From the NCBI GenBank assembly GCA_013285805.1, contig JABDGY010000014.1, positions 1 through 43,567 of the forward strand: a DNA stretch of 43,567 nt. Reading direction: 5' to 3'. Positions 23,545 through 33,229 of this stretch are shown in pieces. The notes beneath the pieces were generated by a model, which was not told the origin of the DNA, ran no database searches, and was given only the letters and a program-made list of their open reading frames with translations. Position numbers and translations under genes: made by a program. The DNA is from Bacteroidota bacterium (GTDB lineage Bacteria; Bacteroidota; Bacteroidia; JABEUT01). Position 1 is the stretch's first letter; each line of letters starts with the position of its first letter.

Positions 23545-23700
23545 CTTAAAAACTCAAGACGAAAATTTATTGATTGTGAATCAATACCTTAAAACGGTTT
23601 AGGAGATTCTCTCGTATAATATCAACGAAATATTACCCAAAAGTTATGGTAATGTTAAATAATGTCCCTACATTCGTGTAACTCAAAAATTAACCCTGGT

Positions 23701-25161
23701 ATGAAAAAGATAAAGTTACTCACTGTATTAGCCTTATTTGCAGGGCTTTCTGCAAACATTAGCGCGCAAAAAAACGTTACCAAGTACATTAAAACTTACT
23801 TTACCCAAGCACCCGATAACACATTCTCGAGCGGTGTTAAAGCTGTGTATTGTAACAACACCATTTTCGATACGCTGGCGGCATACATTAACAAAGCAAA
23901 GTACACCATCGACATTGCCATATATGAATATGAAACCTGGAGCGGAGACCCCATCTACACCGCTATCAACAATGCATACAGCCGTGGTGTAAAAATACGC
24001 CTGATACAAGATAACGGATATGCTTCAAAGAACACAGGTGTAGCAAAGCTCAACTCTTCCATACCTACGCTTACCAGCCCTGCACCCGCTTCTGCACCTT
24101 GCGGTGGCAGCTACAACATTATGCACAACAAGTTTGTTATAATAGATGAATACGCTACTGCCGACACAACCAATACGTATGTATGGACAGGCTCACCCGA
24201 CTGGGACCAGGCTATGAGCCAGGGCGACTACAACAACTGCATAGTGTTCCAGTCGAAGGTGCTGGCAAGGGCATTCACCAACGAGTTCGACATTATGTGG
24301 GGCGACACAACCCACGGCGGAAAATCAAGTTCATCGGGCAAATTCGGCCCATGCAAGCCCAACTCGGGCACACACAAGTTTACTATTGGCGGGTCCGAGG
24401 TTGAACTTTACTTCAGCCCCAGCGACAGTGTGAACAACCATATAGTAAAGGAAATTGAAACAGCGCAAACTGATCTTTACTGCGGCATGTTTACCTTTAC
24501 CGAAACTACCGACGCCACAGATATTGTTAACGAGCACAAGGCCGGCGCCTTTGCTGCAGCCATACTCGACAACTACAGCAGCGGAAGCTATACGCCTTAC
24601 ACCACCATTTTACCGGGCGGCCTTGGCAGCGACTTCCAGGGTTTTGTAAGCAGCAGCTACCTTTACCATAACAAGTACCTTATTGTAAACCCTTCGGCCC
24701 CGTGCCAGAACCCTGTTGTGCTTACCGGCTCGCATAACTGGACATCTTCTGCTGACCAGGAGAATGACGAGAACACTGTGATAGTACATAACGACACCAT
24801 TGCCAACCAATACCTGCAAGCCTTTGCGGGCGACTTTAAAACCATAAGCGGCAGCTCATTGGCTACTACCAAGAATCCTTGCAAGCCCACAGGCATTGAT
24901 GAACCGGCAACCGAATTGCAGCTCGATGTGTTCCCTAACCCATACAGAGGCAACGTAACCATTAGCTATACCCTGGCGCAAGACACTAAGGTAACCATGT
25001 ATGTTTACAACATAATGGGCGAGAAGGTGGCTACACTGGTTGACGCGAATCTCGAAAGTGGCCAACACCAGTTCCAATTCAACGGTGCTTCTTCAGGTGT
25101 TTACATTCTTCAGGTTAATGAGGGTGGGCGCATCTATACCAGGAAGCTGATACAAGAGTAA
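23701..25161 (+). CDS. Secreted phospholipase D-like nuclease/lipase with T9SS sorting domain
   Basis: 486 residues from ATG 23701, which begins a clean signal peptide (MKKIKLLTVLALFAGLSANISAQ). The 13 in-frame codons upstream probably precede transcription start, since a -7-like TACATTCG lies near 23671. There are two PLD half-domains. The first has H142-N-K144-x4-D149 followed by TGSPDW. The second has H323-N-K325 followed by GSHNW but Asn at the usual Asp position (330). A T9SS type A sorting domain (about 405-486, LDVFPNPYRGNVTI) ends the protein. PLD-fold enzymes act on phosphodiesters, so a secreted or surface nuclease or phospholipase is likely. The paired extracellular cysteines (C134, C218, C261, C335) may form disulfides. 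Confidence 0.83.
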   Translation: MKKIKLLTVLALFAGLSANISAQKNVTKYIKTYFTQAPDNTFSSGVKAVYCNNTIFDTLAAYINKAKYTIDIAIYEYETWSGDPIYTAINNAYSRGVKIRLIQDNGYASKNTGVAKLNSSIPTLTSPAPASAPCGGSYNIMHNKFVIIDEYATADTTNTYVWTGSPDWDQAMSQGDYNNCIVFQSKVLARAFTNEFDIMWGDTTHGGKSSSSGKFGPCKPNSGTHKFTIGGSEVELYFSPSDSVNNHIVKEIETAQTDLYCGMFTFTETTDATDIVNEHKAGAFAAAILDNYSSGSYTPYTTILPGGLGSDFQGFVSSSYLYHNKYLIVNPSAPCQNPVVLTGSHNWTSSADQENDENTVIVHNDTIANQYLQAFAGDFKTISGSSLATTKNPCKPTGIDEPATELQLDVFPNPYRGNVTISYTLAQDTKVTMYVYNIMGEKVATLVDANLESGQHQFQFNGASSGVYILQVNEGGRIYTRKLIQE

Positions 25162-25184
25162 CTCCCTACAGGTTTTTATATACA

Positions 25185-25217
25185 AGGCCCTGGCAATAAA
25201 TGTCAGGGCTTTTTTTC
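25185..25217 (+). terminator. Rho-independent terminator after the PLD-like gene
   Basis: A stem with arms GCCCTGgCA and TGtCAGGGC around an ATAAA loop, followed by seven T's (ending near 25216). It lies 24 bases after the stop codon. Confidence 0.85.
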
Positions 25218-25524
25218 TTCGCCCGCCGTAGTTTTACACGAAGGCCGGGTCGCCCACCGTAGCCGTTACTTCGTAATTGCGAGGCTGTTTTAGCAGGCGT
25301 GGCAATCTCAGTATTCAATCTCGCGCAAGGCGCAAAGGTTTTACCGCACATTCCCGGTAGCCATAGGGTGAGGTCGCAGTTTTAAATAAGTTATTGATTT
25401 TCAATATTTTAAACGAGGTAACACTTTTTGATACTTTTGAGATGTTATATAATTGATATTCAACGTTTTGAATAACTGTTACCCCGCCGAATCTGTTACC
25501 CCGTGTTACCCCGTTAGCTATACA
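25218..25524. other. Intergenic stretch without a gene; short GTTACCCCG repeats
   Basis: No credible ORF. The left half contains worn fragments of dispersed repeats, for example TTGCGAGGCTGTTTTAGCAG near 25275. The right half is AT-rich and ends in three copies of GTTACCCCG at 25478-25486, 25495-25503 and 25505-25513. Their function is unknown. Confidence 0.5.
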
Positions 25525-25824
25525 CTATGATATATTCTTATATTTCTTTTTAGAGTCTTTTTTACAGCTAAATACACGAAGTATAAATATTACATCTTCC
25601 TCAACGCTGTATATAATAAGATATGGGAATTTTTTAATGTACTTCTCTCTTGTGTATTTGTACTTATTCGGATATCCCAAGGGAGCTAACTGTATTTCCC
25701 GTGAACATTTGAAAACAGTATCGGCAAATTTTTCTCCTAAGCCTTTTTGTTGTTTTTCATACCAGGTTTTTGCCTGTATTATATCATTAACAGATTTATC
25801 AGTAAATATTAAACGATGCCTCAT
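25525..25824 (-). CDS. ParE/RelE-family toxin
   Basis: 99 residues. The compact RelE/ParE fold is indicated by LIFTDKSVNDIIQAKTWYEKQQ (first strand and helices), a central LAPLGYPNKYKYTREKYIKKF with many basic residues, and the final strand YLIIYSVEEDVIFILRVFS. It overlaps its partner by 4 bases (ATGA), antitoxin first, the usual order for this class. ParE proteins poison gyrase and RelE proteins cut ribosome-bound mRNA; the target cannot be decided here. The tyrosine- and lysine-rich tail, KKDSKKKYKN, is intact, so there is no sign of decay. Confidence 0.82.
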   Translation of the reverse strand: MRHRLIFTDKSVNDIIQAKTWYEKQQKGLGEKFADTVFKCSREIQLAPLGYPNKYKYTREKYIKKFPYLIIYSVEEDVIFILRVFSCKKDSKKKYKNIS

Positions 25825-26054
25825 TTTTTACTTACAATCCTTTTTGCCGATTCTAAGGTGTAGTATTTTAATTTACCTGCCTTATGTTCAGCCAGGGTTT
25901 TATCTAATTCCGCCTTTTGTTCCAAGGTAAGCAGGCTTTCACGCCCTTCTTCCTCTTTATACGATTTCAGCATTTTATAAATTACCTCTAATGCCTTATC
26001 ATCAATATCATCTATATATTGATGAGCCTTCTTTCTTAATGCAACTGCTGTCAT
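25821..26054 (-). CDS. Antitoxin of a type II toxin-antitoxin pair
   Basis: 77 residues from ATG 26054 (a TTG two codons earlier is possible). Highly charged and helical: LRKKAHQYIDDIDDKALEVI, then KMLKSYKEEEGRESLL and LEQKAELDKTLAEHKAGK, resembling small Bacteroidota antitoxins of ParE-like toxins. It has a DNA-binding N-terminus of unclear class and a C-terminal tail (YYTLESAKRIVSKK) that should wrap the toxin. A -7 box (26082-26089, minus) gives a leader of about 20 bases. Such pairs are usually autorepressed. Confidence 0.78.
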   Translation of the reverse strand: MTAVALRKKAHQYIDDIDDKALEVIYKMLKSYKEEEGRESLLTLEQKAELDKTLAEHKAGKLKYYTLESAKRIVSKK

Positions 26055-26081
26055 AGCCAATTATATTAAATGTGTATAATA

Positions 26082-26089
26082 CAAAGTTA
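26082..26089 (-). promoter_or_regulatory. -7 box (TAnnTTTG) for the toxin-antitoxin pair
   Basis: TAACTTTG on the minus strand, 27 bases upstream of the antitoxin ATG. It matches the consensus fully. Confidence 0.55.
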
Positions 26090-26150
26090 CTTATTTCGTA
26101 GCATTTATTTTTATAATCCCCCACTTGTTTTCAACAACCCCTATTATAGG

Positions 26151-26220
26151 ATTAAGGAATCCCGATAGCTATCGGGAGGAATAAGCCGGGAATAAGTTTA
26201 CTTACTCCTTATTCCTTACA
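26151..26220. repeat. Nested hairpin element around CCCGATAGCTATCGGG
   Basis: A perfect 16-bp palindrome, CCCGATAGCTATCGGG (26161-26176), is flanked by two further inverted pairs: TAAGGAAT (26153-26160) with ATTCCTTA (26211-26218), and AGGAATAAG (26177-26185) with CTTATTCCT (26208-26216). The pairs compete, so alternative foldings exist. REP-like dispersed elements with this palindrome are common in Bacteroidota (from memory). Confidence 0.55.
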
Positions 26221-26658
26221 CCTCTTCTACTGGCATAAAAAACAATAACTTATCAATGAAATAACAATGCATAAACAATGCAATTATCAATAAAACGCCA
26301 TTGATACTGAATTTGCAAGTGGCTGAAAACCAATAAGGAGTTATTGATATATCAATGTTTTTTCATATTATTTGGTTTACTATGAAGTGTGTCGAATAGC
26401 GTCTACTTCAAAATTGTTAACTTTTTACATTTGGTTATTAAATTTATTTCACCGCAGAGGTCGCAGAGTAAAATCAGCGCAAAGAACGCAGAGTTTTTCA
26501 TTTTTAATTCCTCATTTTTAATTGCCTAACGCAAAGTTAAGCCTAATGTTTACTATATTAAATAAAAAAGTGATAAAGTTTTTAACAGGTCAATCCATCA
26601 CTAACGACTAATGACTGTCGACTAACGACTACCTATTTTCATTCTTACTTCTTACCTA
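26221..26658. other. Intergenic stretch of degenerate short repeats, no gene
   Basis: AT-rich with no supported ORF. CGCAGAG occurs three times (26453-26459, 26462-26468, 26487-26493). CTAACGACTA occurs twice, 21 bases apart (26601-26610, 26622-26631). TTACTTCTTAC occurs twice (26645-26655, 26659-26669), the second copy overlapping the 3' end of the next gene. Together they look like an accumulation of dispersed repeat debris. Confidence 0.5.
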
Positions 26659-27087
26659 TTACTTCTTACTTTCTTTCGCTCCATATCGTATTGCCTCTTC
26701 AAGTACATCAATGTTTATGTCTTTCAGTGTTTTGAACTTAATGCAGTACCCTGTTACGCTGGCCTTGCCCAGTTTTTTTCCAAACGTTTTGGCTAAGTAG
26801 GTCTTATCTTTTATACCGAGTATATAGACAGAGATGCCGGTTTTGTTTGCGCTCAAACCAATCTGAAAAAAATCTTTGGTCTTTCCGTCGGCATATTTTA
26901 TGGTGTAAAGCCCGTAGCCTATGGTAGGGTTGTTAACGGTTTTATTCTCGCTGTTTTTACCGGTGTCGAACCATAGTTTACAGCCCGATAAAACTTTAAG
27001 TATGCGCTTGTGCAACTCTTGTATTTCGCTGCGCTTTGGTTCAGCCAGGCTGGTAATGTACTCTTCTATTTGTTCTTTTATGCTCAT
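26659..27087 (-). CDS. DUF1801-type small cytoplasmic protein
   Basis: 142 residues with no signal or membrane segment. IEEYITSLAEPKRSEIQELHKRIL at the N-terminus and a central TIGYGLYTIKYADGKTKDFFQIGLS resemble the DUF1801 (YdhG-like) fold. The C-terminal helix (DINIDVLEEAIRYGAKESKK) is typical of the family. The biochemical role of DUF1801 is not settled. It stands alone between repeat-rich stretches; its 3' end carries a copy of a short dispersed repeat. Confidence 0.7.
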   Translation of the reverse strand: MSIKEQIEEYITSLAEPKRSEIQELHKRILKVLSGCKLWFDTGKNSENKTVNNPTIGYGLYTIKYADGKTKDFFQIGLSANKTGISVYILGIKDKTYLAKTFGKKLGKASVTGYCIKFKTLKDINIDVLEEAIRYGAKESKK

Positions 27088-27139
27088 AAAATATTCAATT
27101 ATGGTTGCTTACTCTGCTCTTCAAATTTCGCATTGTTTT

Positions 27140-27457
27140 TTAATATTCCCACAGAAAGGAATAGCCTGAGTGCAAATAATCGAGCAGCATTAATATTACA
27201 AAGGGCATTTCAATAATTAAAATCCAGTAATACTTTTTTTGATTATTGATGAATTGAACAAATAAATCGGCTATGAATAAAAATACTATTGTAATAACCT
27301 TTGAAAATATAAGGATTGCCCCTGTTAGTCCGTCAATCTGACCGCGCTCCTGGCTATGCAGGTAATTTATTGTTAGAGGTATTAATACAAGGAGGTATAT
27401 AATAACTAAGTGAAAAGGAGATAACCTATACTTTTTTCTGGGTCTAGTGGTGTCCAT
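27140..27457 (-). CDS. Small membrane protein of unknown function
   Basis: 105 residues. About three hydrophobic segments: FHLVIIYLLVLIPLTINYL (16-34), LTGAILIFSKVITIVFLFIADLF (44-66) and YWILIIEMPFVILMLLDYL (77-95), with a short basic N-terminus (TRPRKKYR). I recognise no family. It probably sits in the inner membrane. It is AT-rich and orphan, between DUF1801 and the cassette at 27968. Confidence 0.55.
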   Translation of the reverse strand: MDTTRPRKKYRLSPFHLVIIYLLVLIPLTINYLHSQERGQIDGLTGAILIFSKVITIVFLFIADLFVQFINNQKKYYWILIIEMPFVILMLLDYLHSGYSFLWEY

Positions 27458-27769
27458 TTGTTATATTATTTCAAACAAAAGTTACACAAAGTTCGTTATT
27501 CAATTTCTTTAGTAAAAATAACAATAAAAAAATACAATGAGCCCTCTCTACAACCCTCTCCCAGCGCGGTGTCCATTGTTAAATACAGCGATTTACAATG
27601 AATGGGTTAAATCTTTGATTTTCAGAATATTATGTAATAATTTGATTCTCTCATGGTTCCGCCTGATTGCTAACCGCTAGTAGTTTCGCTTAGAAAAGAG
27701 AAACCTGATGTTTGTTTTCAACAGGGTATAATGCTAAAATCCTTATCTATCAAATATGAACTTTAACTA
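27458..27769. other. Intergenic AT-rich region with an inverted repeat
   Basis: No gene seen. CATTGTTAAAT (27574-27584) and ATTTACAATG (27591-27600) form an imperfect inverted repeat around ACAGCG. The rest has no structure I can support. Confidence 0.4.
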
Positions 27770-27875
27770 TAATTTTGTATTATAATGGGTAAGCCATATT
27801 AATTTCTTTCACTCAAAAAGTCGATATTTTAATATAAAAATGCATTTCAGTACGTAAAAACTGCATCTTAGGACG
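27770..27875 (+). promoter_or_regulatory. Candidate control region of the ParB-like/Dam/HNH cassette
   Basis: A -7-like box TAATTTTG (27770-27777) lies about 190 bases before the first ATG. A direct repeat, TGCATTTCAGTACG (27841-27854) and TGCATCTTAGGACG (27862-27875), has 11 of 14 identical positions and a 21-bp period, that is two helical turns, as for dimers bound on one face of the DNA. The binding protein is unknown. Confidence 0.4.
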
Positions 27876-27967
27876 AGTTTTGTTGAATGAGTAAAAATCT
27901 TTTTTATGTTAAGGGGCTGAAATTTATCATATAAAAGAAGATTAATTAGAAAACTAAAACAAATCAA

Positions 27968-29215
27968 ATGAGCCAAGAAGTAAGAACCTTGAAACTTAAA
28001 GATTTAGTCTTATGGACTGAAAATCCAAGAGACCCGATTGATAAAGACGCAAAAGATCAAGATGTTGTAAACAGAGCTATAGATGGGCAGCATTCTAAAT
28101 GGACTCTCAGTAAGCTTGCGTTTGAAATGGGGGACTACTATGATTTTAGTGAACTGCCAACAGTCGTATTTCATGGTAAAAGACCAATAGTGTATGATGG
28201 TAATCGAAGAATTATACTTGGCAAATTAAAACATGGATATGTAAAGCATGATCATTTTGACATTTCAAATCTTCCCAATTTTCCTTCTGAAATACCATGT
28301 AATGTCTGTTCTGAGAAAATTGCTTTAAAAAATGTATTGAGAAAACATGGAGAATCAGGTTCATGGCAACCGCTTGAAAGGGATATGTTTCTACATAAAT
28401 TCATGCATCAAGAAAAAAGTATTTTTCTTGTGCTTGATGAAAATACAGGATTAATTAGTACACATAATCACTTGAATCAACGTTACGTAAAAGACGAAAT
28501 TTTCACTAATGAAAACCTTAACGCTTTAGGTTTTGAAATAAAAGGTAATAAACTTTTTAGCGTTTTTTCAGATAAAGAGGCAACATCAATACTCGCTGAC
28601 TTATCCAAAAAGGTAGAGGATAAGCAAATTACTACACGGAATAATAGAGGTAAGGTTTTTGATGTGCTTGATAAGAAACATCAGCAACTAATTGATGAGA
28701 GTAAAGAAAATGAAGCCACCCCGGCAAAAATAGATTTTAGAAAAGATAAAAAAGGGAAGAAGGGGAAAGCGAAACAAAAATTAACAAAACGCAGACTTAA
28801 AAATGATGAATTGCTGTTTGGGGCAAAATTATATTTAATTTCTGGTGACGTTAATGAGCTATATAGGGGTATTGATGACCTGTATGGTTATTATCTTAAT
28901 GATAAAGATAAATTATCTTCTTCTTTCCCAGGTTTAATTAGAATGGCACTGCGTTTGCTATGCGAAATGGCTGCCAAAGAGGAAGATTTAAGGATAGATG
29001 AATATGTCAAGAAGTATTTTGCTAATGCTAAAAAGGAGCTCAATACCGATGAAAAGACTACACTTTCTAATCAAAATGTCTCCGATGCTACTATTGTTCA
29101 GTTATTGCATACTGGAGCACACAATTATAAATCATCTAATAATATTGCACAGACAATTGCGATTTCGATTATTCTCGGAGAAATGATTAAAATAACACAT
29201 GGAAAAGCAGAATAG
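27968..29215 (+). CDS. ParB/Srx-fold protein, first gene of an AT-rich cassette
   Basis: 415 residues. Residues about 5-95 look like a ParB N-terminal/sulfiredoxin-fold domain: LKLKDLVLWTENPRDPID (ENPR at 18-21), then LPTVVFHGKRPIVYDGNRRI (DGNRR at 77-81), the positions where ParB proteins have 'NPR' and 'GERR/DGHHR'. Next come a CxxC (C111, C114), the GSWQPLERDMFLHKF segment, and a lysine-rich linker (about 254-278). The C-terminal region (about 283-415) is helical and contains IRMALRLLCEMAAK and LLHTGAHNYKSSNN, vaguely HEPN/DUF4145-like. No CTP-binding or partition partner is nearby, so chromosome segregation is unlikely. Its 3' end overlaps the methyltransferase gene by 17 bases. The function is not known; it may be DNA-binding, nucleolytic or regulatory. 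Confidence 0.7.
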   Translation: MSQEVRTLKLKDLVLWTENPRDPIDKDAKDQDVVNRAIDGQHSKWTLSKLAFEMGDYYDFSELPTVVFHGKRPIVYDGNRRIILGKLKHGYVKHDHFDISNLPNFPSEIPCNVCSEKIALKNVLRKHGESGSWQPLERDMFLHKFMHQEKSIFLVLDENTGLISTHNHLNQRYVKDEIFTNENLNALGFEIKGNKLFSVFSDKEATSILADLSKKVEDKQITTRNNRGKVFDVLDKKHQQLIDESKENEATPAKIDFRKDKKGKKGKAKQKLTKRRLKNDELLFGAKLYLISGDVNELYRGIDDLYGYYLNDKDKLSSSFPGLIRMALRLLCEMAAKEEDLRIDEYVKKYFANAKKELNTDEKTTLSNQNVSDATIVQLLHTGAHNYKSSNNIAQTIAISIILGEMIKITHGKAE

Positions 29216-30092
29216 CCGCAAAATATATTCACCGTTAAGGTATCCAGGTGGGAAGGGTTGTATTTTTCCATTTGTTTCTGATTTATTTTACGAGAATCAA
29301 TTAATAGGTATGAATTATGCAGAACCATATGCAGGAGGGGCTGGGCTTGCCCTAAGGCTGTTATTTGAAGGCTATGTGGAAAAGATATATATTAATGATA
29401 TAGATAAATCTATTTATTCATTTTGGAATGTAGTGCTAAATAGGCCTAAGGAATTTTGTAAGTGGATTAGAAATGTAAAAATCGATATTAACAGGTGGGA
29501 GTATTATAAGGATATGCAATCTAACATAGTACGTATAGATGAATTCGAATTAGCTAAATCAACTTTTTTCCTCAATCGCACAAATATTTCTGGTGTAATT
29601 AAGGGAGGGGCAATTGGGGGCAAAATGCAAGAGGGGAAGTATAAATTGGATGCTAGGTTTAATAAAGCAGACTTGATTAATCGAATAATGAAAATTGCTG
29701 AATTAAAAAGTCGAATAGCTGTTTCGAATTTGGATGGGATTAGTTTTCTAAAAAAAATGGACAATAAAAAAGAAGACATTTTTATATATTTAGATCCACC
29801 CTATTTCCAAAAGGGCGCAGATTTATATATGAATTTTTACAAGGAAAATGATCATAAGAAATTATCAAAACGAGTTGCTAAATTGAAAAAGAAGTGGATG
29901 GTTTCTTATGATAATCAAGAGTTTATATTAAATCTTTACGCTGAACAAAAAAAAATAACCTACAAACTTTCACAATGTGCTTCAAATAGAATTGGTGATG
30001 AAATTTTGATTTTTTCTAATAAAATCGATTTTGCCAGTTCAATTAGTGCATTAAAAAGCCCAATGATATTAAATCAATTGTGTGTACAATAA
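29199..30092 (+). CDS. D12-class DNA N6-adenine methyltransferase (Dam/DpnM family)
   Basis: 297 residues. YSPLRYPGGKG (10-20) is the D12-family N-terminal SAM motif, YAEPYAGGAGLAL (40-52) is motif I, INDIDKSIYSFW (65-76) follows, and the catalytic DPPY is at 199-202. FLNRTNISGVIKGGAIGG (124-141) occupies the place of the 'NRxxxNGxxR' segment of Dam. It methylates adenine N6 in a specific duplex sequence; the site is unknown, and the divergent NRT segment argues against assuming GATC. It overlaps the ParB-like gene by 17 bases and precedes the HNH gene by 18 bases, so the three form one unit. Base composition is much more AT-rich than in the flanking housekeeping genes. Confidence 0.9.
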   Translation: MEKQNSRKIYSPLRYPGGKGCIFPFVSDLFYENQLIGMNYAEPYAGGAGLALRLLFEGYVEKIYINDIDKSIYSFWNVVLNRPKEFCKWIRNVKIDINRWEYYKDMQSNIVRIDEFELAKSTFFLNRTNISGVIKGGAIGGKMQEGKYKLDARFNKADLINRIMKIAELKSRIAVSNLDGISFLKKMDNKKEDIFIYLDPPYFQKGADLYMNFYKENDHKKLSKRVAKLKKKWMVSYDNQEFILNLYAEQKKITYKLSQCASNRIGDEILIFSNKIDFASSISALKSPMILNQLCVQ

Positions 30093-30110
30093 AATTTATT
30101 AAACAAAGGC

Positions 30111-31097
30111 ATGGAAAATAAAACAGAAAACCTATCTATAGTAGTTGATGAGTCTAATGCTGAAAAAACACGTCACTTTTTGGATATATATGAAATGGAA
30201 ACCATTATTGGCGATAGTGATAATAAATTCTATTTAGGCACGAAGGAACCAAGAATTTGCCGATTCTGTAAGAAGAATGAAAAAGAAGTTACATTTAAAA
30301 TGGATGCCCATGTTATGCCGCAATTTATGGGTAATAGGAACTTACTGTCCTATTTTGAATGCGATGAATGTAATAGCCTTTTTAGTAACTATGAAGATTC
30401 ATTTGCAAACTTCCTTGGTATCACTAGAACCTTTGCTCAAATCAAAGGACAATCAAGAAAGGTTCCTAAATTTAAGGACCCAAGAACTGGGATTGAAGTT
30501 TACCTTTCTGATACAGGCATACAATTGACAACTGTAGAGGGTAAGGATTCAATAAAAATTGATGAAGAAGGCAAGTCCTTAGAAATTACTACAACACGGC
30601 CAACTTACATCCCTATTCATATTCCTAAAGTACTTATAAAGATTGGGTTATCTATGTTACCTGATAGTGCGGTTGAAGATTATGATCTTACAAGGAAATT
30701 TATTTTACAGTCAGACAAAGACATTAATTTCAATAATAGTAATATGCTTCGCATATTTGGTTATTTCATCCCAGGGCCTCCTAAATTTCCAACACCATTT
30801 GCGCAACTTTATAGAAAAAAAACTGAAAAAGCTGAGCTTCTTTGTCCTTCAAGGCAATTGATACTTTTTTATGCGAACTATTACTTTCAAATGGTGTTAC
30901 CTTTCGCTGATTCTGATAAAAACTTACAGGGGAAGCAAATTAATGTTCCACTTTTCCCTTTACTTGTTGATAAGTCTTATATGGATAAATATGGTGACTA
31001 TAGAAGGCTTAATCTTAATTTAACAAGTAATCAAAAGAAGAAAGGCGAAGAGCATAAAATTACATTCTCTTTTGAAGGCCTTACACAGACTTTATAA
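30111..31097 (+). CDS. HNH endonuclease-like protein (HNH_5-type zinc-binding core), third gene of the cassette
   Basis: 328 residues. A zinc-type HNH core is visible: C50-x2-C53, DAHVMP with H67, C84-x2-C87 immediately followed by N88, and E95-D96. This reproduces the CxxC...H...CxxCN...E/D pattern of ParA-independent HNH_5 nucleases. The remaining 220 residues (about 105-328) are not recognised; they contain IPIHIPKVLIKIGLSMLP and a FYANYYFQMVLPF segment and may recognise DNA or partner proteins. It follows the methyltransferase by 18 bases. In a restriction-modification reading it would be the cutting enzyme against which the methyltransferase protects; this is inference. Confidence 0.75.
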   Translation: MENKTENLSIVVDESNAEKTRHFLDIYEMETIIGDSDNKFYLGTKEPRICRFCKKNEKEVTFKMDAHVMPQFMGNRNLLSYFECDECNSLFSNYEDSFANFLGITRTFAQIKGQSRKVPKFKDPRTGIEVYLSDTGIQLTTVEGKDSIKIDEEGKSLEITTTRPTYIPIHIPKVLIKIGLSMLPDSAVEDYDLTRKFILQSDKDINFNNSNMLRIFGYFIPGPPKFPTPFAQLYRKKTEKAELLCPSRQLILFYANYYFQMVLPFADSDKNLQGKQINVPLFPLLVDKSYMDKYGDYRRLNLNLTSNQKKKGEEHKITFSFEGLTQTL

Positions 31098-31453
31098 AGT
31101 ATTAAAGAGTGCCACTTAATAGAAAATCTTACTTAATAAGCCTTTCGCTATTAAGGGTAGGTAACAATTAGTTCTTTTCATGGTGGGATAACGGGACTCG
31201 ACTCCGTGCCGCCTTAGCTTTAGCGGTGGCGCAAAGGGGAACGCCCCATAAACAAAAATAGATTGCTTCGTTCCTCGCAATGACGGGCTGTTTTACATAA
31301 TCAGATGCTTCGATAGGCTCAGTGTGATTGCCCTCCCCCTAACCCCCTTCAATAGGGTATAACTTCTCAAATCTTCAATCGTTAATCGATATTCGTTATT
31401 CCGGCTGTTCACACCCTACTTTTTGCTAATATTGCACAAGCAAAATACAACCC
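31098..31453. other. Intergenic region of dispersed-repeat fragments downstream of the cassette
   Basis: No gene. It holds strings I recognise as recurrent in Bacteroidota intergenic DNA: GATTGCTTCGTTCCTCGCAA (31261-31280), CTTCGATAGGCTCAGTGTGA (31309-31328), and a hairpin-forming GGGGAACGCCCC near 31236. A stretch resembling a tRNA 3' end on the minus strand lies at 31181-31207. The 3' edge carries a weak -7-like TAATATTG (31427-31434) that may serve sppA. Confidence 0.5.
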
Positions 31454-33229
31454 ATGAAAAACTTCTTCGCCTCGCTGTTCGGAGCCATAATAGGAATCTT
31501 CCTGTCGTTCTTCCTTATATTCATAATAATAATGGGTATGATAAGCAGCGCGGTAAAATCGTTCAAGACCGAAAAACCCAATGTGGTAAGCCCCTCTAGC
31601 GTATTGGAAATAAGGCTAAACAAGGCTGTGCGGGAGCGCAGCGACGAACGTGGCTTCGACTTTAACCTGGGCGATGGTGAAAAGCGCTTTACCGAAAACT
31701 CGGGCCTTAACGATATTATAGCCGACATACGCCATGCCGCCACCGACAACAACATTAAGGGTATTTACCTTAACCTGGGCGATGTGCCATCGGGCCTTGC
31801 CACAGTCGAGGCGGTGCGCAACGAGCTGGCCAAGTTCAAGGAAACCTCGCATAAATTTATTATTGCTTACGCTTCGGGCTACAGCCAGAAATCGTATTAC
31901 CTGGCCTCGGTAGCCGATAAGGTTTACCTATACCCTGAAGGAGAAATTTTCCTGAAGGGATTATCGGCGCAAATAATGTTTTACAAAAAAGCCCTCGATA
32001 AGCTGGGTGTAACCGTGCAGGTATTCCGCCACGGCCGCTACAAGAGCTATGTTGAACCGTTTATACTGGATAAAATGAGTCCCGATAACCGCCTGCAGAC
32101 AAGGATGCTGCTGTCGTCGGTATGGGATAAAATGCTTACCGATATTGGCGCTAACCGTGGCATAACTGTAGGCGCTATAAACGAAATGGCCGACAGCATG
32201 AGCATACACTCGGCAGAACTGGCAGAGAGCCACAAGCTTGTGGACAGCCTGCTGTACCCCGACGAAGTGATGGATAAAATGCGCACCAAATTGGGCATAA
32301 GCGCCAGGCAGGATATATCGTTCATTGGCCTCGACGATTACCGCCAGACCTTTTATGAGCCCTACAGCAGCACTTCGAAAATAGCGGTGATATATGCCAG
32401 CGGCGATATAGTGCAGGGTAATGGCACCGATGAGGAAATAGGCTCGAACCGTATGTCGAAAGCCATACGCGAGGCCCGCCTCGACCCTGCAGTAAAAGCC
32501 ATAGTGCTGCGCGTTAACTCTCCCGGTGGCGATGCGCTGGCTTCGGATATTATGTGGCGCGAAATTGACCTTGCTAAAAAAGCCAAGCCTGTGGTGGTAT
32601 CTATGGGCGATTATGCGGCATCGGGCGGTTATTACATTGCCTGCGATGCCAATACCATTGTGGCCGAGCCTACTACCATTACCGGTTCAATAGGCGTATT
32701 CGGCCTTATACCTAATGCACAGCAATTGCTTAACGATAAACTGGGAATAACTGTTGATACCGTTAGCACCAACACACACGCTGCGGCCGGCTCGGTGTTC
32801 TACCCGTTGCAATCGAACGAAATGGCGGTGCTGCAAGGAGGCGTTGAGAATTTCTATCACACCTTTTTAAGCCGTGTGGCAGCCGGCAGGAACATGACCG
32901 TCGCAAATGTAGATAGCATTGCGCAGGGCAGGGTGTGGAGCGGGGCACAGGCCATAAAAATAGGCTTAGTAGATACCCTTGGCGGTATGGATGTTGCGTT
33001 GAAAATAGCGGCTAAGAAAGCTAACATAACTACCTATAGCGTGGAAGAACTGCCTGCGGCATCGAACGCATGGAAGAGGTTCCTGGCGCGTTTCAACCCC
33101 GAAGACATGGATAACAAAATACTGCAGGATAAGCTGGGCGACTTTTACGCCCCTGTGCAGGAACTGACAAAAGCGGCTACTACAAAAGGCATACAGGCAC
33201 GTATGCCCTACCAATTAATAATACAATAA
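31454..33229 (+). CDS. sppA: Signal peptide peptidase SppA, 67K type
   Basis: 591 residues, the long tandem-domain form. A single N-terminal membrane anchor (about 8-30) is followed by two S49 peptidase domains. GRYKSYVEPF (194-203) carries the lysine general base K197, and MGDYAASGGYYIA (384-396) carries the nucleophile S390, preceded by VLRVNSPGGDALAS. ITGSIGVFGL follows. The serine and lysine come from different repeats, as in E. coli SppA. It degrades cleaved signal peptides in the membrane. G+C content is visibly higher than in the cassette upstream. purE starts 21 bases after it. Confidence 0.94.
   Translation: MKNFFASLFGAIIGIFLSFFLIFIIIMGMISSAVKSFKTEKPNVVSPSSVLEIRLNKAVRERSDERGFDFNLGDGEKRFTENSGLNDIIADIRHAATDNNIKGIYLNLGDVPSGLATVEAVRNELAKFKETSHKFIIAYASGYSQKSYYLASVADKVYLYPEGEIFLKGLSAQIMFYKKALDKLGVTVQVFRHGRYKSYVEPFILDKMSPDNRLQTRMLLSSVWDKMLTDIGANRGITVGAINEMADSMSIHSAELAESHKLVDSLLYPDEVMDKMRTKLGISARQDISFIGLDDYRQTFYEPYSSTSKIAVIYASGDIVQGNGTDEEIGSNRMSKAIREARLDPAVKAIVLRVNSPGGDALASDIMWREIDLAKKAKPVVVSMGDYAASGGYYIACDANTIVAEPTTITGSIGVFGLIPNAQQLLNDKLGITVDTVSTNTHAAAGSVFYPLQSNEMAVLQGGVENFYHTFLSRVAAGRNMTVANVDSIAQGRVWSGAQAIKIGLVDTLGGMDVALKIAAKKANITTYSVEELPAASNAWKRFLARFNPEDMDNKILQDKLGDFYAPVQELTKAATTKGIQARMPYQLIIQ

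Follow-up and report, generated by a model that had tools for sequence, protein, structure and literature searches.

A putative divergent relative of the PD-λ-5 anti-phage pair followed by an HNH nuclease gene in an AT-rich island of a Bacteroidota genome

Three adjacent genes, A, B and C, lie in an AT-rich island of the window, the whole 43,567-nucleotide stretch of DNA analysed here, which is one contig of a Bacteroidota assembly of 2.05 Mb and 60% completeness. Genes A and B probably form a two-gene, restriction-modification-like anti-phage module that represents a divergent branch of PD-λ-5, while C would be an independently acquired HNH nuclease gene. In E. coli, PD-λ-5 has been shown to protect against phages (Vassallo 2022, PMC9519451); the phage-defence phenotype of the copy in the window, and every biochemical step proposed for it, we infer.

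The AT-rich island between a PLD-like gene and sppA

The open reading frames of the window place the three genes on the + strand at the same coordinates as the preliminary description, with the same overlap and spacing. Gene A (27968..29215) codes for a predicted ParB/Srx-fold protein of 415 aa, assigned from its ORF, PADLOC, hhalign and an AF2 model. It overlaps by 17 nt gene B (29199..30092), whose 297-aa product is a D12-class N6-adenine DNA methyltransferase according to Pfam and the PADLOC PD-Lambda-5_B model. After a gap of 18 nt follows gene C (30111..31097), coding for an HNH_5-family nuclease of 328 aa recognized by Pfam and phrog_26663.

The island (25162..31453), delimited by GC content and by comparison with the same-genus genome G561, has a GC content of 0.336 (25200-31450). 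Its flanks are a PLD-like gene (window 23662-25161) and sppA (window 31454-33229). A, B and C (GC 0.333, 0.309 and 0.331) are more AT-rich than the PLD-like gene (0.475) and sppA (0.499), the latter contrast having been correctly noticed at the outset, and their third-position GC is 0.25-0.27 versus 0.56-0.58 in the two flanking genes. Upstream of A-B-C the island carries on the - strand a gene for a ParE-family toxin (25525..25824; Pfam PF05016, 4.4e-7) and, overlapping it, an antitoxin-like gene for an addiction-module component (25821..26060; PF09720, E 0.0011, below the curated cut-off). The neighbourhood first described as a toxin-antitoxin pair with repeat debris thus holds for the toxin and its antitoxin-like companion, and the debris reduces to one dispersed repeat, GATTGCTTCGTTCCTCGCAATGACG, at 31261-31285, just downstream of C, the 24-base core of which has two copies in the 60%-complete assembly. 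The search for terminal direct repeats bounding the island gave none that is convincing, and Pfam searches of the island genes found no core gene of BREX or DISARM (PglZ, BrxC, DrmA/B etc.).

In G561 the PLD-like gene and sppA, each 72% identical to its counterpart in the window, are 94 bp apart, while 6.3 kb separate them here. The entire AT-rich segment has therefore either been inserted here or been lost there. In other sister genomes that have sppA, the genes preceding it are different ones, so that the empty site is demonstrated in one genome only, G561. Gene A is absent from all ten other same-genus genomes searched, and the window-type A subfamily was found in 2 of 395 genomes of the class, its own included. 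It is probable that the island carrying A-B was gained horizontally between the PLD-like gene and sppA. The flanking genes also differ in composition from their relatives: sppA has a GC content of 0.50 here, far above the 0.39-0.40 of same-genus G424 and G561, and the PLD-like gene 0.475 compared to 0.39 in G561. An AT-rich island with few genes and a rare A subfamily would also suit decaying cargo that plays no present role in defence, but the three ORFs are intact and their motifs conserved, which leaves this explanation with hardly any weight.

The A-B pair and its kinship to PD-λ-5

Gene B provides the closest link to PD-λ-5. Its product matches the Pfam family MethyltransfD12 (3.9e-19) and, over 276 of 297 residues, the PADLOC model PD-Lambda-5_B (PDLC04018; E 5.2e-111). 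The DPPY motif at residues 199-202 is invariant in an alignment of 12 sequences, and 7m6b is a relative in the PDB (2.5e-32). All PADLOC models matched by the products of A, B and C belong to PD-Lambda-5, MTase_II or orphan-MTase entries.

The A protein has no significant Pfam match, and a sequence search of the PDB returned chance matches only. It matches PADLOC PD-Lambda-5_A with an E-value of 1.6e-9 over residues 6-270 (265 of 415 residues). A profile of window-type A proteins was aligned by hhalign to a PD-λ-5 A profile from loci whose members reach 6e-168 against the PADLOC PD-Lambda-5_A models; the alignment has a probability of 99.5% (E 3.8e-23) and spans 385 columns, nearly the full length, with ~16% identity. 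Judged from these profiles, A is homologous to PD-Lambda-5_A along its whole length, though very divergent in sequence.

The AF2 model of A, computed with 15 sequences (mean pLDDT 81, pTM 0.59), features an alpha/beta amino-terminal part, a poorly predicted linker (residues 261-294) and an alpha-helical carboxyl-terminal domain (296-411). Its top PDB matches are all ParB/Noc proteins, at marginal significance (Foldseek E 5e-3, probability 0.99), and several of the matched structures hold CDP or a CTP analogue. A [DE]GNRR motif is found in 36/36 sequences of the A family, as DGNRR at residues 77-81 in A, at the place corresponding to the GERR nucleotide-binding motif of ParB proteins. These weak structural matches of the model and the [DE]GNRR motif are the basis for the predicted ParB fold. 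NTPase and nicking activities were reported for ParB/Srx proteins (review PMC12839542). The carboxyl-terminal domain has an invariant AH at residues 384-385 and a conserved R...E. This R...E...AHN pattern raised the suspicion of a HEPN domain, for which neither Pfam nor the PDB gave support; the domain could be HEPN-like. No copy of A was found in annotated phages and plasmids, and a pattern scan of viral contigs for the A motif returned an unrelated contig.

The association of A with B is found well beyond the window. A genome-wide scan with window-type A yielded 13 other loci, many of them in metagenome bins, from Saprospiraceae, Cyclobacterium, Algoriphagus, Sphingobacterium, Chitinophaga, Prevotella, Prevotellaceae, Alistipes, Bacteroidales, Alphaproteobacteria, Rhodospirillaceae, Sulfuritalea and Omnitrophota. 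Window-type A is accompanied by B in all 13. The preliminary description was thus right to see in the ParB-fold protein a true partner of the methyltransferase, and the case it had raised of a ParB-like gene usually found without the others does not apply. B directly follows A in 12 loci; in the thirteenth (L077) the pair is split by the insertion of a transposase-like ORF (L077:1547-2851). The overlap is exactly 17 nt in 5 of the 15 pairs compared. Distances among A and among B proteins co-vary (Spearman 0.82 without an outlier; 0/2000 permutations as high), which indicates that the two genes evolve as a single unit. The genomes searched were one per species and the scans were seeded by short peptides, so that counts given here are samples and not a census; a first scan of genome contigs seeded with B alone had returned no relatives.

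On this sequence evidence A and B are a divergent branch of a pair of the PD-λ-5 type, a kind already known (PMC9519451). They share with it a PD-Lambda-5_B methyltransferase, a ParB-like protein of the PD-Lambda-5_A type and the co-oriented arrangement of A adjoining B, both genes being homologous, as well as a mobile, often prophage-borne nature. The E. coli copy has no genes other than A (501 aa) and B (294 aa). It lies in a P2-like prophage, flanked by the replication endonuclease gene and the portal gene, a site that Vassallo 2022 (PMC9519451) described as the P2 defence hotspot. The window differs by the strong divergence of A and by the HNH gene after the pair; a third gene is lacking in E. 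coli, and most close relatives have an OLD-type ATPase/TOPRIM gene in place of the HNH gene. The ParB layout had not been recognized as that of any type I-IV system, BREX or DISARM; because a ParB-like gene with a D12 methyltransferase is PD-λ-5, this arrangement had already been described and A-B is known under that other name. The literature search found no mechanistic paper on PD-λ-5.

Operons of the MAE_28990 type (HEPN, ParB nuclease and DNA methylase; Anantharaman 2013, PMC3710099) also combine a ParB-type protein with a DNA methylase, but the window has no separate HEPN gene and the A carboxyl-terminal domain is HEPN-like by eye at most.

Partners of the methyltransferase in other loci

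A further 66 loci with B were compared, many of them viral contigs picked by similarity to B, and were classed by profile scores within 1.8 kb of B. The partner is of ParB type in 53 and of OLD type in 11 more. ParB-type A occurs without the OLD-type gene, D, in 30 loci of the PD type and 7 of the window type, and together with D in 10. A ParB gene is joined by a REase-like third gene in 5 loci, and by a third gene beyond the distance limit in 1. D without a ParB-type gene accounts for 11 loci, all viral contigs, and the remaining 2, one at a contig edge, have neither.

Gene D (~520 aa) adjoins A or B in 8 of the 13 genome loci, within 50 bp and either upstream of A or downstream of B, and a fragment of it is present in a ninth. 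Examples are L041:6667-8229, L072:6421-7986, L078:3064-4653, L079:10131-11687, L081 and L082. AAA_15/AAA_21 domains are present in its product, which matches profiles of AriA, GajA and, to 9e-26, retron ATPase-Toprim; by these matches D is an OLD-type ATPase/TOPRIM nuclease, akin to the OLD-family nucleases GajA, AriA and the retron ATPase-Toprim proteins. The window has no D. Pairs with neither C nor D are found in five of the 13 close relatives and in a viral relative, L086. The literature search found no mention of D in association with a PD-λ-5-type pair.

In viral contigs L122, L126, L128-L131, L140, L145, L150 and L153 an OLD-type ATPase gene directly precedes the B-family methyltransferase and the neighbourhood lacks a ParB-type gene; the two genes may form a distinct defence pair borne by phages. 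A three-gene version, found in L049:6472-9411, L057, L135, L142 and L152, comprises the methyltransferase, a ParB protein (~370 aa) and a third protein (~300-340 aa) that has a D...(Q)xK REase-like stretch and no significant Pfam match. This exchange of partners suggests that A and D belong to an effector arm and B to a modification arm.

The HNH nuclease gene C and the reading of the locus

C is an HNH_5 protein (Pfam 7e-9; phrog_26663 2e-40). Its core, C50-x2-C53, H67 and C84-x2-C87-N88, is intact, as first noticed, and invariant in 22 relatives. A fold search against the PDB gave no significant match, and the literature search on PF14279 returned one unrelated survey.

About 50 relatives of C were sampled, mostly in prophages and plasmids, all without window-type A or B. 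Plasmid-borne relatives occur in Hymenobacter (46-47% identity) beside copper and efflux genes, in Treponema beside a type I restriction-modification locus and in Fusobacterium beside a ToxN-like toxin; the others come from 33 viral or prophage contigs and a few genomes. No partner recurs consistently beside them, their neighbours being integrases, phage genes and unrelated ORFs, and a short methyltransferase-type motif is present in an adjacent ORF in only 1 of the ~50. Conversely, no C-family protein was found near any of the 66 other B loci. A conserved A-B-C trio, the gene order that the preliminary description had suggested checking, is rejected on these two samples, within which the trio occurs in this genome only. 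A small ORF with an HNH-like C..C-H-C..CN pattern lies ~500 bp upstream of a D-less A-B pair in L080 (2031-2306).

The adjacency of a methyltransferase and an HNH nuclease gene recalls classical type II restriction-modification, in which B would shield host DNA from cleavage by C and A would be a regulator. Yet B is paired with A, not with C, across Bacteroidota, Pseudomonadota and viral contigs, and relatives of C lack a neighbouring methyltransferase, a situation that would be untenable for an unregulated restriction enzyme. The methyltransferase and its would-be cognate nuclease are not conserved together, and this scheme is very unlikely. From the initial impression of restriction-modification there remains a defence-like, modification-linked pair in a horizontally variable island, without the HNH gene as a conserved partner. 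A type IV enzyme of the GmrSD kind (ParB and HNH; PMC12839542) likewise combines the two folds, but in the window they are encoded by distinct genes, which belong to different families and have the methyltransferase gene in between, and no Pfam match to DUF262 (GmrS) or to a GmrD-type HNH was found in A or C.

The locus might instead be a three-gene system, a PD-λ-5-like pair with a variable nuclease slot occupied here by C in place of D, where C would cut as directed by A or by the mark of B. The frequent proximity of D to A-B, the B loci with a REase-like third gene or D alone and C itself, which fills the downstream slot 18 nt after B and agrees with the pair in GC content, all suit such a system. 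However, it is a single case, C being in no other A-B locus; the pairs with neither C nor D indicate that A-B seems complete; and relatives of C occur in many unrelated contexts. We consider it unlikely, though well ahead of the type II scheme. Its extended form, with the methyltransferase as a hub, ParB-fold, OLD/TOPRIM, REase-like and here HNH_5 proteins as exchangeable effectors, and the HNH protein having replaced OLD as the cutting subunit of A-B, is doubtful to the same degree.

C is best read, from its sequence relatives, as a self-sufficient nuclease gene that arrived separately and is not a conserved partner of A-B. It is probably co-transcribed with them. The common GC content of the three genes (0.31-0.33) and the 18-nt gap also fit a joint three-gene acquisition, which counts against separate arrival; shared composition would allow joint transfer of A-B-C, and a functional link may exist in this genome.

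In the reading preferred here, of a PD-λ-5-like pair next to an independent nuclease, B would put N6-methyl marks on adenines in DNA, the activity characteristic of its family. A, with its nucleotide-binding-type [DE]GNRR motif and helical carboxyl-terminal domain, would be gated by nucleotide and act with B as sensor or effector. It would use the presence or absence of the marks, or B itself, to attack or block unmarked incoming DNA or to trigger abortive shutdown. C would be an HNH_5 nuclease whose gene moves independently and settled immediately downstream of B; it probably adds a separate, unrelated anti-DNA activity. The ~16% identity of A, and its match to a single PADLOC model over 265 of 415 residues, mean that the activity of A-B may differ from that of PD-λ-5.

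These results correct a tempting but unsupported three-gene reading and assign this rare locus of Bacteroidota to a defence family of validated activity. The same methyltransferase is found repeatedly with nuclease-type partners of different kinds, ParB-fold, OLD/TOPRIM or REase-like. Comparison of loci that have a given partner with loci that lack it would therefore be a direct test of what A and the methyl mark do in PD-λ-5.
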